Source of the DNA: Sphingomonas phyllosphaerae 5.2 | Lineage (GTDB): Bacteria; Pseudomonadota; Alphaproteobacteria; Sphingomonadales; Sphingomonadaceae | Direction of reading: 5' to 3' | Length of the DNA: 64,000 bases | Assembly (NCBI RefSeq): GCF_000419605.1 | Contig: NZ_ATTI01000001.1 | Span: 2,762,501-2,826,500 of the forward strand | In this document: positions 16,809-64,000 of the stretch, piece by piece | Layout: each line of letters opens with the position of its first letter | Numbering within the stretch: position 1 is the stretch's first letter | The notes under the pieces: generated by a model | Told to the model about the DNA's origin: nothing | Database searches by the model: none | The model's input: the letters and a program-made list of their open reading frames with translations, nothing else | Translations under genes and position numbers: made by a program

Positions 16809-16884
16809 GGGTCCGTAGCTCAGTTGGTAGAGCAAGCGACTTTTAATCGAGAGGTCCCGGGTTCGAGCCCCGGCGGACCCACCA
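16809..16884 (+). tRNA. tRNA-Lys (TTT)
   Basis: A 76-base tRNA including an encoded CCA. The acceptor arms GGGTCCG/CGGACCC pair fully, the D arm is GCTC/GAGC, the anticodon loop is CTTTTAA (anticodon TTT) and the T arm is CCGGG-TTCGAGC-CCCGG. The anticodon stem pairs only at its inner three positions; the outer two appear as A-G and G-A. It starts directly after the folK stop. Confidence 0.95.
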
Positions 16885-57960: not shown

Positions 57961-59292
57961 ATGGCAACGCAAATCCCCTCACCGCCCCGCGTGGGCATGG
58001 TCTCGCTCGGCTGTCCCAAGAACCTGGTCGACAGCGAACGGATCCTGACCCAGCTCCGCGCCGACGGCTACCAGATGTCGGCCGACTATTCCGGCGCCGA
58101 CGTCGTGCTGGTCAACACCTGCGGCTTTCTCGATTCGGCGAAGGAAGAATCGCTCGAGGCGATCGGTGAGGCGATCGCCGAGAATGGCCGCGTCATCGTC
58201 ACCGGCTGCATGGGCAAGGAAGCCGAGACGATCCGCGCGCGCTTTCCGGGCGTCCTCGCGATCACCGGCGCCCATGAATATGAGCAGGTCGTGGAGGCTG
58301 TACACGCCGCCGCGCCCGCCGCGCTCAGTCCGTATGTCGACCTGATCCCCGACGCCGGCCTGAAGCTGACCCCGCGCCACTACAGCTACCTGAAGATCTC
58401 GGAGGGCTGCAATCACCGCTGCTCCTTCTGCATCATCCCGTCGCTGCGCGGCGACCTGGTCAGCCGCCGCCCCGACGCGATCCTGCGCGAGGCCGAGAAG
58501 CTCGTCGCGGCGGGCACCAGGGAATTGCTGGTCATCAGCCAGGACACGTCGGCCTATGGCATCGACATCCGCGACCAGTCGCGGATGTGGAAGGGTGCGG
58601 AGGTGCGCCCCCACATGACCGACCTCGCGCGCGAGCTCGGCCGGATCGCGCCATGGGTGCGACTCCACTATGTCTATCCGTATCCGCACGTCGATCAGGT
58701 CATACCGTTGATGGCGGACGGGCTGGTGCTCCCCTATCTCGACATTCCCTTCCAGCACGCCGCGCCGTCGGTGCTGCGCCGCATGAAGCGGCCCGCCAAC
58801 GACGCCAAGGTGCTCGGCCGAATCAAGGCGTGGCGGGAGATCTGCCCGGACATCGCGATCCGCTCGACCTTCGTCGTGGGCTTTCCCGGCGAAACCGAGG
58901 CGGACTTCCAGTATCTGCTCGACTGGCTGGACGAGGCGCAGCTCGACCGGGTCGGCGCCTTCCGCTTCGAACCCGTCGAGGGCGCGTCCGCAAACGCACT
59001 GCCCGATCCGGTGCCGGAGGAGGTGAAGGAAGAACGTTACGCGCAGATCATGGAGAAGACCGCCGCGATCTCGACGGCGAAGCTCGCTGCCAAGGTGGGA
59101 CGCACGCTCGACGTCATCATCGACGCGGTCGATGCCGAAAGCGGCGGCGCTTCCGGGCGATCGATGGCCGACGCGCCGGAGATCGACGGTGAGGTCCACC
59201 TGCGCGATGCCGGCCATCTCGCGGCCGGCGACATCCTGCGCGTCGTGATCGAGGATGCCGACGAGCACGATCTGTTCGGCGTACCCGCCTGA
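57961..59292 (+). CDS. rimO: Ribosomal protein S12 methylthiotransferase RimO
   Basis: A 443-residue radical-SAM methylthiotransferase that modifies Asp88 of ribosomal protein S12. Three N-terminal Fe-S cysteines are in [29 protein letters not shown] and [11 protein letters not shown]. The radical-SAM cluster motif is [22 protein letters not shown] and [16 protein letters not shown] separate RimO from MiaB. A C-terminal TRAM domain follows residue 375. The ATG is the only start that gives the family N-terminus. Confidence 0.98.
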
Positions 59293-59386
59293 CCATCAAG
59301 CCTCTGAGCCGATGCGATAAATTGGCATGCCTCACGATCGGTTAACGATCCGGCCCTAAACCCGCCGGATTACCGATGGAGACACC

Positions 59387-60418
59387 ATGCCGCGCCGGAT
59401 CAGGTCCCTGTTGTCGTTGTTGAGTGACGAAGTCGCCGCGCACGCCGACCGGTCGGAAGCGATCGCCGGGCAAACACGGCTGCTGGCGCTCAATGCCGCC
59501 ATCGAAGCCGCCCGCTCCGGCGAGGCGGGCCGCGGCTTCGGCGTCGTCGCGCAGGAAGTGAAGACGCTCGCCGCGCAGGCGAGCAGCTCGTCACGTGCCT
59601 TCCGCGAGGAACTGCTCGGCCGTCTCCAGCAAGGTAGCGGGATCGCCGGCGACCTCGTCAGCGAGCTCGAGGGCGGACGGCTCGGCGAACTGGCGCAGTC
59701 GATCGCCGACGCCTTGTCGCGCACGCTGTTCGACCGCACGATCGACGTCCGCGTGCTCGCCAGCGACCATTCGGTACGCGAGAGCCTGCTGCTCTCCGAT
59801 AACGACCGCGCCATCGCCCGCGCGGTGGAGCGGATGCGCTCGCTGCTCAGCTTTTCCCCTTACTTCCTCAACGGCTTCGTCGTCGCTGCCGACGGTCGGA
59901 TCGGGGCGTGCGCGCATGAAAATGCCGCGGTGCGCTCGGTCCGCTTCGACAGCTTCGCGCAGTTCAGGGCGGTCATGCAGGGGCCGCTACCGGCCGGCTG
60001 GTCCACCGACGAGGTCTGGCCCAATCCCTGGTCGCACGAACGCAAGGTCCTGATCTTCACCGCACCCGTCGCGGTAGAGGGGGTGACGATCGGGGTCTGC
60101 TATCTGGAATATGATTTCGAAGGGCAGGTCGCGCAGCTCATCGACGTTCTCAACCGCTCCTCGCGCCGCGCGACCATCTCGATCGTCGACCCGCACGGTC
60201 GCATCGTCGCCACGACGGGCACGCGCCGCTTCCACGAACAGCATCCGCATGCCGCCGGCGGGGCGGCGCGCATCCAGTCGCTCGACGGGCTGGTCGTCGC
60301 GCAGGCGCGGGTCCCGACCGACCACGGCATCCCGGGGCTCGATTTCCGCTGCGTCATCGAAGACCATGTCTCCAGCGACAGCGAGATCGTCGCGGCGATG
60401 TCGGGGCTGGCGGCGTGA
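59387..60418 (+). CDS. Small soluble MCP-like protein with C-terminal sensor domain
   Basis: A 343-residue cytoplasmic protein without membrane helices. The first 75 residues are the tip of a chemoreceptor signalling hairpin ([35 protein letters not shown]), with only short coiled-coil arms. The rest is a mixed alpha/beta region that resembles a PAS/Cache-like sensor ([55 protein letters not shown]). Ordinary receptors have the sensor first, so this order is reversed. It could still bind CheA/CheW, or act as a decoy. It is monocistronic. Confidence 0.8.
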
Positions 60419-60670
60419 AGCCGCCCGCCGGTCGGTAGCGGGTAGCGACCCGTATCCATGACGCAGGGCGGCTTCCGATAGGAACGCCATCGGCGAAGTC
60501 TGTACCGGCCCGCAATGGCGGCAGAAAACGGGCCGCGCTCGTGCGTCTGGCGGCCGATGACATGGGCAGGATCGATCGGATGTGGGGCGGGAATTTCGGT
60601 CATCTCGCAAGCCGTTGACCGAAAGGTAATTCCTCCCGCCTAGCGCCACGTACGGGGCAAGGAGGCGCAC

Positions 60671-61240
60671 ATGGGAATATTGGACTCGCTCGCCAGCTTC
60701 ATCGACAATGAGGGCTTGGCCGAAGCCTTTGCGGTGAAGCCGGACGATCCCGCGAAGGTGCGGAAGCCGATGCGTGACGGGATCGCCCGGACGCGCGAGC
60801 AATATGCGGCGCGCGGCAACGGCACCGTCAAGGCGAGCGGGCGATGGTGGCAGGTCCAGAACGGCATCGTCGCCTTCACCGTGAAGGTCGGCGGTGGCAC
60901 GCTCCCCCTGAACGGCGCGTCGACGAACCACATCCCCGAAGCCATGTTCGACGTCTTCCTGACCAAGCTGGAGCAAGCGCTGGACGCCGGTGAACTCGAC
61001 GAAGCGTTGAAGCTCAACCAGGACGAACGGGCAAAGTCGCAAGCCCCGGGCGGCGGCGCGCGCGCGGCGGACCTCCCTGCGGGCAGCGACCGACGTCCCG
61101 GCATCGACCGCGAGGACTGGGATGACCTCACCTGGGCGCAACGCCAGAAGGTCAATGCGCTGTATCGCCAGGGAAAGAATCCGGACGGCAGCGCAATCGC
61201 CGAAGTCGGCTACAAGCCCGACGCGCCACTTGCGGCCTGA
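60671..61240 (+). CDS. Hypothetical protein, no recognised family
   Basis: A 189-residue soluble protein. The first 100 residues look like a compact alpha/beta domain (SGRWWQVQNGIVAFTVKVGGGTLPLNGASTN and IPEAMFDVFLTKLEQALDAGELDEAL). A Gly/Ala/Arg linker follows, then a short helix REDWDDLTWAQRQKVNALYRQG. There is no signal peptide or membrane segment. AAGGAGG precedes the ATG at ideal spacing, so it is expressed. It stands alone in orientation and spacing. Confidence 0.75.
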   Translation: MGILDSLASFIDNEGLAEAFAVKPDDPAKVRKPMRDGIARTREQYAARGNGTVKASGRWWQVQNGIVAFTVKVGGGTLPLNGASTNHIPEAMFDVFLTKLEQALDAGELDEALKLNQDERAKSQAPGGGARAADLPAGSDRRPGIDREDWDDLTWAQRQKVNALYRQGKNPDGSAIAEVGYKPDAPLAA

Positions 61241-61269
61241 GGAAGCGCCGCGGTGGGCGGCGCCCTTTC

Positions 61270-62388
61270 TCAGGCTTGCGCCTCGGAGCGGCGCGTTGCC
61301 CGCGATCGCGGCGGCAACAGCCATCGCTTCAGCCACGACGCGGCGTGCGCCTCATATCCCGCGTGGATGGCGTAGGCGACCAGCACCAACAGCCCGGCGA
61401 CCGCAACCGGCACCAACGGTGCCCCTATACCCGCGCGCGTGCCCACGGCGGCGATGATGCCCACTCCGAGGTGATTATGGAGCAGATAAAGCGGGTAACT
61501 GACCGTCCCGACGAAGAACAGTCCACGGGTCGCCAGCAGCTTCTGAATCGCGACCGAGCGCTGGCTTGCCGCGAACAGCACCACGACACCGAGCAAGGCG
61601 GCCTTGTCGCTCCATAGCACGACTCGAAAGTTCGTCAGCGAGCAGACCAGACCGATCGCGACCGCCAGCCAATACAGGCGCGGCGATCGCGCCTCGTGCG
61701 CGCGGTAGAACAATGCACCGCTGGCGAACCATCCGAAAAACTCCAGCCCCGCCCACCACAGCGGCTCGGGCGCGCGGCCCAGCAGCGGCACCGAAATGTA
61801 GCGAAGTCCGGCGGCGATCACCCAAAGCGCGATCAGGCCGGCCACCGCCCGCTTCCAGCGAAACGCGAAATACAGCACGCCGAAAATTACGTAGAACGAG
61901 AATTCGGTGACCAGCGTCCAGTACGCGCCATCGACGGGCAGAACGTCGATCTTCATCAACCCGTGGTAGAAAGACGGGCTAATAAAGGTGAGCGCCACCG
62001 CGATATCGCCTACCCGATACCCTCCCGTCGGCATATCCGGCAGCATGGTCGACGCTGCGGCCAGCAAAACCGAACAGAGCAGCAGCGCGGGGGCCAGCCG
62101 GATCCAGCGACGTATCAGGAAGCGCACCACGTCCGTCGACGTCTCCAGCGTCCTGAAGATCACGAAACCGGAAATCAGGAAGAACAGGTACACGCCCAGC
62201 CATCCCTGCCCGAAGAACGGCAGCGCGCGATGGCGGTCGCCATACGGCAGGTTCGCGGCGTAGGTCGCCCCGTAATAATGCCAGCCGATCACCGCTATCA
62301 CGGCGACGCCGCGCAGGCCGTCGAGATAGCGGATGCGATGCGCGGTATTCTCGACGGAGTCGGCACCATGCCCCTCCAGCGGCGTCAT
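61270..62388 (-). CDS. Acyltransferase 3 family membrane protein
   Basis: A 372-residue integral membrane acyltransferase (AT3, OafA/NodX type). The opening RIRYLDGLRGVAVIAVIGWHYYG carries the catalytic His, FFGQGWLGVYLFFLISGFVIFRTLE the second motif, and FLIRRWIRLAPALLL the conserved Arg pair. About ten helices follow, with no C-terminal SGNH domain. AT3 proteins O-acetylate or succinylate surface sugars. The start is an ATG 26 codons before the first motif. Confidence 0.93.
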   Translation of the reverse strand: MTPLEGHGADSVENTAHRIRYLDGLRGVAVIAVIGWHYYGATYAANLPYGDRHRALPFFGQGWLGVYLFFLISGFVIFRTLETSTDVVRFLIRRWIRLAPALLLCSVLLAAASTMLPDMPTGGYRVGDIAVALTFISPSFYHGLMKIDVLPVDGAYWTLVTEFSFYVIFGVLYFAFRWKRAVAGLIALWVIAAGLRYISVPLLGRAPEPLWWAGLEFFGWFASGALFYRAHEARSPRLYWLAVAIGLVCSLTNFRVVLWSDKAALLGVVVLFAASQRSVAIQKLLATRGLFFVGTVSYPLYLLHNHLGVGIIAAVGTRAGIGAPLVPVAVAGLLVLVAYAIHAGYEAHAASWLKRWLLPPRSRATRRSEAQA

Positions 62389-62700
62389 GCGGCCGTCGAG
62401 ACCAGAAGGGGGCTGCCGCAACCCCCGGTGTTTCGCGCGACATTGCCTGCGATGCCGGCCCGCATGGGGCGACCGGCTATGGTCGAACCCCGCCGCCCCG
62501 TCCGAACGACCGCCGTCCCCGCAATCTGCTTCATATCGCGTCCCCCGGCGCACGATTGCCGAGGCGCACCGCGGTTGTCGACCTTTTCCCTGCACGCACC
62601 GTTGCTGGATCGAAACACCATGTCCATACCGCGCTGCCACGGGAAGGCTGAACTTGAGTGGGTGAGTGGCCGAACGACAAACGTCGAGCACCACGAGGGT
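62389..62700. other. Gap between acyltransferase and tRNA remnant
   Basis: About 310 bases with no convincing gene. Open frames on the minus strand have no ribosome site and no family motif. Confidence 0.5.
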
Positions 62701-62750
62701 TGGTAGCGGAGGAGGGACTTGAACCCCCGACACGCGGATTATGATTCCGC
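62701..62750 (-). other. 3' half of a CAU-anticodon tRNA, probable att site of an integrative element
   Basis: Read on the minus strand, this is the anticodon arm (GCGGA-ATCATAA-TCCGC region, anticodon CAT), variable loop, T arm (GGGGG-TTCAAGT-CCCTC), acceptor strand CTCCGCT, A and CCA of a tRNA (elongator Met or Ile2). The 5' half is missing: just before the anticodon stem the sequence switches to unrelated lower-GC DNA with no D arm. Tyrosine recombinases that use tRNA targets leave exactly such a displaced 3' half at one end of the element. An integrase gene lies about 0.85 kb away. Confidence 0.8.
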
Positions 62751-62840
62751 ACGAACGTCGCTTAGGTCCTTGCCTTATTAGCCTCTTGTTGCTTCCATGT
62801 CGCACTCAGCATGCGGCGTAGCGATGACCAAGGACCTGAT

Positions 62841-63566
62841 ATGCGTGAACGTATCCTATCTCAGATGCAATGGCCGATGGTGCATAACGGCGATGTGCCG
62901 TTGGATCGTAGAATGATGGACATGGTACGGCCCTTCTCAGACGCTTGGGCTGCCGCCTTCTGGGAGTTGGAAAATTTAGCCTTGTTTAATCAAGCGGCGT
63001 ATTACAATGTGGAGAGCAGGAACAAGCATCTTGATGAGCATGCAGCCGCCATCAAGTCTTGGACACCGCCCAACGAAGATGATGACGAACTTTACGAGCA
63101 ATTTAGCCTTGCACTCTCGCGCGAACGCAACACCATCATAGGAGGAGAACTTGAGGTTGAAGCAATCGCTCGCTACGCTGACGAGGTCACGATCATAGCT
63201 TGTTGGGCCTTTGCAGAAAAGAATCTAAACGATGGCCTATCTAAACCACGAGGATTATTAGGCCTAGCGGATGCTCGAAGCCATCGATGGCCCGATATTC
63301 GGGCATCGTTCCTAGAGTGCGGCCTTGAGCTTGAAACCTTGGATTCCTTTGCAGATGCAGATGAGTGCCGCCGAGTAAACAATGCCATTAAGCATGGCGG
63401 CCTAGTAGACAGAGGCTTGGCTCAAATTCCCTTTTTCGCGCCTTCAGCGGATAAGAACATTAGCACGCTGGAGCTCGAAACGCAGCGATATTACTTCGGG
63501 GTGGCGGACTTTATAGGAGCGATGTACGAATCGAGCTCGAAAATTTTGGCAGCTTTACCGAGCTAA
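62841..63566 (+). CDS. Low-GC cargo gene, HEPN-like protein
   Basis: A 241-residue soluble protein with codon use unlike the rest of the window (many A/T third positions, AGG, TTA and CTA codons). The C-terminal half resembles HEPN domains: a helix RYADEVTIIACWAFAEKNLNDGL (111-133), then the motif ECRRVNNAIKHGG with R177/R178, N180 and K184-H185, matching the Arg-x(4-6)-His pattern of HEPN RNases. The N-terminal 100 residues are helical and not recognised. HEPN proteins are common in toxin-antitoxin and abortive-infection systems. AAGG lies at good spacing before the chosen ATG; an ATG at 62811 is the alternative. No partner gene follows before the integrase. Confidence 0.65.
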   Translation: MRERILSQMQWPMVHNGDVPLDRRMMDMVRPFSDAWAAAFWELENLALFNQAAYYNVESRNKHLDEHAAAIKSWTPPNEDDDELYEQFSLALSRERNTIIGGELEVEAIARYADEVTIIACWAFAEKNLNDGLSKPRGLLGLADARSHRWPDIRASFLECGLELETLDSFADADECRRVNNAIKHGGLVDRGLAQIPFFAPSADKNISTLELETQRYYFGVADFIGAMYESSSKILAALPS

Positions 63567-63592: not shown

Positions 63593-64000
63593 TTAAGCTA
63601 ATAGCTCGTTCGCCGTCGCCGCCGCGACTGCTGCGTCGCCAATGTCGTCGCGGATCAAATGGCCGTAGGTGTCGAGGGTAATTTGCACGCTTGAATGGCC
63701 AAGCCAAGTCGTCAGCCGCTTGAGGTCGATACGCTGCTTTATCCAAGCGCTCGCGGCATAGTGTCGCAGGGCATGGAAATCGTATCGAGCACGGCTGCCC
63801 GGCTCATCACTGCCAGACTTCGCAACAGCCGGCCGCACCAGCCCTGCCTTTACCTGCAATGGCCAGTATTCCCGGTTGAGCAGGTTGGAGTGCAACCGCA
63901 CCCCGCCCTCGCTATTCGGAAACAGCAGACCTGCCTCTGAGTGCGGTGCCCGCAGCATCCACTTCCGCAGCTCGGTGACGAGCACCGGCGGGATCGGGAT
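63593..64000 (-). CDS. Tyrosine recombinase/integrase, C-terminal part (cut by window edge)
   Basis: The frame runs off the right edge; 135 residues of the catalytic domain are present. The HALRHYAASAWI segment gives the His and second Arg of the active site, LGHSSVQITLDTYGHL gives the second His and the nucleophile Tyr. The first Arg and the DNA-binding core domain must lie beyond base 64000. The gene reads toward the tRNA 3' fragment. It is the likely enzyme of the element whose left end is at 62701-62750. Confidence 0.92.
   Translation of the reverse strand: MPIPPVLVTELRKWMLRAPHSEAGLLFPNSEGGVRLHSNLLNREYWPLQVKAGLVRPAVAKSGSDEPGSRARYDFHALRHYAASAWIKQRIDLKRLTTWLGHSSVQITLDTYGHLIRDDIGDAAVAAATANELLA

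Follow-up and report, generated by a model that had tools for sequence, protein, structure and literature searches.

Entry into a tRNA gene is a common route by which mobile DNA settles. The integrase gene of such an element usually lies beside the intact tRNA gene. Three crossover subsites in tRNA genes are distinguished in the accessible part of PMC4383910, where the anticodon-centred islands make up the larger of the two Islander classes (2083 of 3919 islands). An excerpt of PMC8371274 describes the 7-bp loop as the overlap region, and in the available portion of PMC9897764 mobile elements are named as a source of tRNA gene fragments.

The locus described here was found near the right end of a 64,000-nucleotide stretch of DNA from Sphingomonas phyllosphaerae 5.2 (G000), and this whole stretch (G000:C1:2762501-2826500) is called the window below. 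The genome is 3.92 Mb long and consists of two contigs. Between a gene that we take to be rimO, or rimO-like, and ligT-kup there is almost certainly a prophage-derived integrative element of about 18.8 kb, seated in the single-copy tRNA-Met(CAU) gene and most likely a cryptic prophage. The element is ordinary in kind. It is, however, a clean and bounded example, since its ends are known to within the repeat, uninterrupted loci exist in relatives, and there is a sister element with swapped cargo.

The Displaced tRNA Half and the Direct Repeat

An earlier note on this DNA had proposed that the left end of an integrative element lies at a CAU tRNA, of which only the 3' half, from the anticodon stem to an encoded CCA, is present. 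The letters of 62701-62750, read on the minus strand, bear this out: they form the anticodon stem (GCGGA), the loop (ATCATAA, with the anticodon CAU), the 3' stem (TCCGC), the variable loop, the T arm, the acceptor 3' strand and ACCA. Within the window ARAGORN calls only a tRNA-Lys and a tRNA-Leu and nothing at 62701-62750, which fits a half gene. The 15-base anticodon stem-loop, allowing at most one mismatch, occurs twice in the 3.92-Mb genome, both times exactly (one occurrence for the backward control).

When a query of 78 bases, comprising the half-tRNA plus its 3' side, was compared with the own genome, the single other strong match was at 2844026-2844084 (minus strand), where 59 of 59 bases agree. 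The repeat is made up of 50 tRNA bases and nine trailer bases past the CCA, and such a repeat between the half and the intact gene is far beyond chance. The right copy overlaps an intact tRNA-Met(CAU) gene called by ARAGORN at G000:C1:2844035-2844111 on the minus strand, and the spacing between the two copies is 18,834 bp. An intact CAU tRNA on the minus strand, repeating 62701-62750, had been predicted to the right of the window, and it is found there exactly, with the nine trailer bases in addition. The intact CAU tRNA is here assumed to be the elongator tRNA-Met rather than a tRNA-Ile with CAU. With the repeat, the intact gene, an integrase beyond the half as the note had also claimed, and phage genes in between (Table 1), the proposed left end of an integrative element holds.

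A tmRNA was also considered for the half (Rfam 11.6 bits, E 0.039, against a gathering score of 47); as the intact gene is an ordinary tRNA-Met, this reading was dropped, and the match reflects half-tRNA resemblance only.

Gene Content and Base Composition

The gene content was read from locus L013 (genome 2824501-2844000), whose positions are converted to window numbering by adding 62000. It holds 77 overlapping frames of at least 90 aa, 30 of which were scanned with PHROGs and 20 of these also with Pfam.

Table 1. Features of the element and its left flank. Positions are in window numbering unless prefixed with L013 or G000.
Feature	Coordinates	Strand	Evidence
Radical SAM methylthiotransferase gene, chromosomal flank, left anchor (taken to be rimO or rimO-like)	57961..59292	+	Pfam Radical_SAM, UPF0004, TRAM_2
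Acyltransferase-3 gene, host side of displaced half	61270..62388	-	PF01757, E 3.8e-21
Left copy of exact 59-bp direct repeat (att site, left end of element)	62692..62750		
9-nt 3' trailer arm ACCCTCGTG, inside the repeat	62692..62700	-	
Displaced 3' half of tRNA-Met(CAU) with encoded CCA	62701..62750	-	sequence and intact gene
Low-GC cargo gene, 241 aa (251 aa from upstream ATG, L013 811-1566)	62841..63566	+	
Tyrosine integrase, 386 aa	63593..64753, cut by the window at 64000 (G000:C1:2826093-2827253; L013 1593-2753)	-	PF00589 (Phage_integrase), E 1.2e-16; phrog_1, E 1.1e-64
Gene overlapping integrase start	L013 2750-3427	-	
AAA_25 helicase	L013 4746-5936	+	
Serine resolvase/recombinase	L013 6251-6949	+	
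Terminase small subunit (TerS)	L013 6991-7398	+	phrog_4044, E 1.2e-40
Terminase large subunit (TerL)	L013 7355-8848	+	phrog_979, E 9.9e-72
Virion structural protein	L013 11039-11488	+	phrog_563, E 2.5e-9
Neck/tail-completion protein	L013 11665-12084	+	phrog_5
SRAP	L013 13371-14036	-	
Candidate phage-defence pair, two low-GC genes	L013 14104-15643 (window numbering 76104-77643)	-	PADLOC PDC-M53 B (E 1.1e-28) and A (E 2.3e-16)
HTH_17 protein, 94 aa, excisionase-like, at tRNA end	L013 19077-19361	+	PF12728, E 2.3e-11; phrog_66 (excisionase and regulator), E 4e-7
Right copy of 59-bp repeat	G000:C1:2844026-2844084		

The low-GC gene of 241 aa sits between the half-tRNA, i.e., the att site, and the integrase gene. 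For its product no match at E 0.01 was obtained with Pfam, PHROG or PADLOC, and judged by its alignment it is a member of a conserved uncharacterised family, which comprises 19 proteins including the window's own, none of them with a Pfam domain. An invariant ECR..NN..KH is found in 11 aligned proteins of this family, a motif that may be HEPN-like. The gene overlapping the start of the integrase gene has relatives in the same place in L054 (46% over 92 residues) and L055 (34% over 128 residues). At the other end of the element, the 94-aa HTH_17 protein is excisionase-like and may be regarded as a putative excisionase.

Both packaging genes are present, i.e., those for the small and the large terminase subunits, and the only structural genes detected in the island are those of the virion structural and the neck protein. 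The 30 of 77 frames scanned gave no match to a portal, protease, major head or tail gene, a result that leaves room for diverged genes, and the frames between TerL and the neck gene are poorly defined. A capsid-forming satellite is recognised by head-formation genes of its own together with a terminase; in the island the portal, protease and major head gene are without match among the frames scanned.

Matches to TerL are found in 93 of the 120 genomes. Among those listed most cover only residues from about 212 to 440, near 50%, and that the wide matches to this gene lie mainly over the C-terminal half suggests that it is a mosaic. The partial matches across the genomes presumably come from gene-transfer-agent terminases. 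The island TerL was itself considered as a gene-transfer-agent terminase and rejected as such; the copies in G049 and G050 match it over nearly the whole length. An older tandem element was looked for in the left flank, and no tRNA fragment was found in 59000-62690, where the matches were chance ones of 8-9 bases.

When it comes to base composition, the GC content is 0.658 in 62000-62691 against 0.509 in 62751-63566, and between 58000 and 62691 the values for the five stretches analysed are 0.658-0.676. GC3 is 0.815 for the acyltransferase gene against 0.525 for the 241-aa gene. The integrase gene (GC 0.643, GC3 0.78) and the TerL gene (0.659 and 0.801) are both near host values, and the defence-like pair further in has a GC content of 0.53-0.55. 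The note had claimed that composition and codon use drop beyond the half. This drop is real across 62751-63566, but as the integrase and TerL genes are host-like it amounts mainly to one small cargo gene and, further in, to the defence-like pair.

Uninterrupted Loci in Related Genomes

The tRNA query matched in 114 of 120 genomes, G000 included, and gene order was compared for the 71 same-genus hits, which include G000 and two hits of G072. In these comparisons rimO was placed in 73 and kup in 71 of 74 genomes. Kup adjoins the 5' side of the tRNA gene in 59 of the 71 hits, and in seven of these 59 rimO is also found within 5 kb on the 3' side, with 180-1593 bp between. With kup at the 5' side this is too close for an element, and G001, G005, G013, G014, G021, G035, and G036 thus appear to have empty sites in the gene order of G000. 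The uninterrupted tRNA of G005, G035, and G001 was also aligned and is 93-94% identical to the left half, and the kup side of these three aligns to the right flank of G000 at 78-85%. The comparison with relatives in which the locus is empty, which the note had suggested, has thus yielded an uninterrupted gene in seven of 71 hits by spacing, and in three of the seven also by alignment. The host DNA at about 60,400-62,685 gave no alignment in the four relatives compared (G005, G035, G001, and G020), so the left junction is placed by the tRNA repeat and the gene order.

The orientation of tRNA-Met varies between species at the rimO - tRNA-Met - ligT - kup locus. It is reversed, with rimO adjoining its 5' side, in nine of the 71 hits, and in three neither rimO nor kup was placed near the tRNA. 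G067 and G006, where 13.8 and 4.8 kb, respectively, separate the tRNA from kup, were not counted as occupied by such elements because no displaced half is listed for them and no Phage_integrase match lies beside the gene.

Integrase Relatives and Other Elements in the Same Gene

The integrase has matches at E <=1e-30 in nine of 120 genomes, G000 included. In Sphingomonas sp. BK345 (G042) an integrase 88% identical to it lies 0.3 kb from a displaced half and 16 kb from the intact tRNA. In 13 of the 18 named integrase relatives (L083-L087, L090, L091, L093-L097, and L100) a displaced 3' half is found downstream of the integrase; 98-887 bp separate its T-loop motif from the point where the integrase match ends. 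L088 holds the first 23 bases of a half at a contig end, and in L089 and L092 no half is found within reach of the integrase. An intact tRNA-Arg(CCU) lies 3.5 kb upstream of the integrase in L092, and what is found in the most distant relatives, L098 and L099, is not a half but an intact tRNA-Met, 0.3 kb upstream of the integrase.

The halves differ in their anticodon loops. A CAU loop on a tRNA-Met body of the G000 type is found in L083, L084, L086, L088, L090, and L096, a CCU loop in L087, L091, L094, L095, L097, and L100, a UCU loop in L093, and CAU on an Arg-like body in L085. The core TYNTAATC, which runs from the last bases of the anticodon loop into the 3' stem, is common to all 13 halves, and TCNTAATC is found in all but L093 (12/13). 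An integrase tree was made from 18 sequences, i.e., G000 and 17 of the 18 loci, the incomplete L100 being left out. In this tree the remaining five CCU-half loci and L092 group with L085, L089, and L093 (nine sequences; support 87/99, not starred). As the integrase group covers Met(CAU) as well as Arg-type loops with the core TYNTAATC, target switching becomes testable.

A separate 3' half of the tRNA is found in at least six genomes (G000, G042, G049, G020, G118, and G093), in G020 and G093 on a different contig from the intact gene. Of these six only G000 and G042 have an integrase of the G000 type as neighbour. All six, however, show a match to Phage_integrase no more than about 0.9 kb away from either the half or the intact gene, so several integrases use the same tRNA gene. 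Half-tRNAs in genomes lacking the integrase had been named beforehand as evidence that would tell against an element; as all six have a Phage_integrase match nearby, the interpretation stands.

In G049 (L056 and L057; C1:86785 and 144485) the tRNA-Met and the displaced half are 57.7 kb apart, kup comes another 43 kb along, and the two tRNA copies are followed by similar sequence. There are perhaps tandem islands at the same gene in this genome. The same tRNA gene is occupied in G118 (L058, C1:511000-522500) by a small element, about 5.9 kb long, which encodes a Rep_1 replication protein and whose integrase, next to the intact gene, is a different one.

Origin and Mode of Integration

The repeat, the intact gene, the integrase, the phage genes, the uninterrupted loci of relatives and the sister element that were observed allow a course of events to be proposed. 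The tyrosine integrase would have recombined attP on a circular form of the element with an attB situated in the gene's 3' half, the overlap region probably being the 7-base anticodon loop. At the right end the host gene would have been made whole by the element's own 3' half, and the host's original 3' half would have been displaced to the left end, 62692-62750.

Several positions inside the 59 bp are compatible with the crossover. It might thus have taken place at the 3' end of the repeat, in which case the intact tRNA would be wholly host DNA and the left half the phage copy, and the 59-bp identity alone leaves this position unfixed. The loop, however, lies inside every shared block seen: in L090 and L096 the identity with the tRNA starts only at the anticodon loop, which points to a crossover at the loop or 3' of it. 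The anticodon-centred class is also the larger one in Islander (2083/3919, in the accessible part of PMC4383910), and a crossover at the 3' end is considered unlikely. The element arm common to G000 and G042, GCGCAGAAATC, starts eight bases past the CCA, with differing bases in between, and is compatible with either position. Half-tRNA copies are found beside other integrases in other genomes, and the half in G000 might be a chance partial duplication unrelated to the integrase; this is hardly conceivable when the BK345 element has the same half on the same side of its integrase, 13 of the 18 integrase relatives have a half-tRNA just downstream, and the locus is uninterrupted in relatives.

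When it comes to the nature of the element, most head and tail genes seem to have been lost, and this makes a cryptic prophage most likely. A phage satellite or a capsid-dependent island that has its own terminase and uses the heads of a helper, and hence is not a decayed prophage, is rather unlikely. Such an island would account for the size of 18.8 kb, for the lack of matches to portal, protease, major head and tail genes among the frames scanned, and for TerS, TerL, the helicase, the integrase, the excisionase-like protein and the candidate defence pair having been kept. However, the phrog_563 and phrog_5 proteins, standing without their usual partners, look like the outcome of deletion, and so do the ill-defined frames from TerL to the neck gene. 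The G042 element, with a tape-measure gene and its best TerL match elsewhere, moreover looks like a different remnant and not like another copy of a single conserved plan. A cryptic prophage is thus the preferred reading.

A Candidate Leader-Trailer Helix in Pre-tRNA-Met

The trailer ACCCTCGTG and a part of the intact gene's 5' leader, CACGAGGGT, are perfectly complementary; this leader and trailer lie in locus L015, which holds the intact tRNA-Met with its flanks. Leader-trailer pairing was surveyed in 70 of the 71 same-genus loci (G003 left out), the null being trailers dealt to other genomes in 5000 shuffles. The mean for the own leader and trailer was 6.90 against 5.73 when shuffled (sd 0.13, maximum 6.29), and 31 of 70 loci scored at least 7 against 11.5 expected (maximum 22). 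For helices starting at most two bases from the CCA a score of at least 7 was reached by 18 of 70 loci, with 2.95 expected (maximum 10). Nine arm pairs, some closely resembling one another, occur among these 18 loci, and as related genomes share arms the loci are not independent events. The other 52 of the 70 loci are without such a CCA-proximal helix, and none of the nine turned-round loci scored at least 7 with a helix at most two bases from the CCA.

In the own genome the 30 best-scoring of 46 tRNA genes, tRNA-Met included, were tested. Helices at most three bases from the CCA gave 4.70 against 3.96 (sd 0.18, maximum 4.68), and with no position limit the difference was not significant (6.02 against 5.74, sd 0.19). 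The tRNA-Lys gene (window 16809-16884) has a 7-bp leader-trailer match abutting the CCA, ATCCGTG/CACGGAT.

A covarying leader-trailer helix in pre-tRNA-Met, kept beside two different elements, is thereby put forward as a candidate from sequence comparison. If it holds, it would be a leader-trailer helix of a bacterial tRNA precursor that mobile elements must respect, a by-product that would outweigh the element itself, and this is the part that merits a specialist's look. According to the available part of PMC9433436, leader pairing with the 3' RCCA inhibits RNase P complex formation. Titles and the opening lines of abstracts mention leader pairing in RNase P substrates and an rRNA leader-trailer helix, and none of them such pairing for tRNA genes used by mobile elements.

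The extension of the att repeat past the CCA was compared in G000 (nine bases), G020 (14), G042 (0), and G049 (five); for G118 one copy only fitted the pattern. In G000 the element arm common with G042 already begins with the ninth base past the CCA. The G020 repeat holds the whole 10-nt arm of its lineage, which pairs with the leader with one G-U, and a match beside the intact gene suggests for this element an integrase different from that of G000. The G042 lineage is without the helix, and there the identity stops at the CCA. G049, with its five bases, is also without the helix and gives no simple fit because similar sequence follows both copies. It is a tentative and somewhat doubtful idea that elements entering tRNA-Met carry a lineage-matched trailer arm in attP, so that integration would rebuild the whole precursor fold. 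The trailer matches would follow just as well from gene conversion between the repeats, or from an attP of the same lineage, as from selection. If the idea is true, trailer matching would act on host range, either as a barrier or as an adaptation.

Comparison with Known Systems

The BK345 element (G042:C8:114459-130763) occupies the same tRNA gene and likewise has its integrase beside the displaced half, a related gene upstream of the integrase (46%) and a common 88-residue gene end (89%). It differs in its cargo, which includes a tape-measure, an HNH and another AAA_25 protein, and in the orientation of the tRNA, which is opposite relative to rimO and kup. Its best TerL match sits on another contig. 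The prophage of G050 (C2:405000-424900) has a TerS 62% and a TerL 49% identical to those of the island, but unlike in the island its TerL is followed by genes for portal, head morphogenesis, protease and major head proteins (nine frames scanned). In the phage collection the nearest TerL proteins are those of the Synechococcus phages Ssp-JY42 and Yong-M4-211 (50.9% over 85%), whereas the phage integrases are less than 30% identical to that of the island among the 10 matches listed.

The marks by which Islander recognises an island, i.e., an intact tRNA, a displaced fragment on the same strand, a tyrosine integrase and absence in some relatives, are all found here. Like the Islander-type islands (PMC4383910), the element thus combines a tyrosine integrase with a regenerated tRNA gene, a displaced 3' fragment and an exact repeat. 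Its integrase adjoins the displaced fragment rather than the intact gene.
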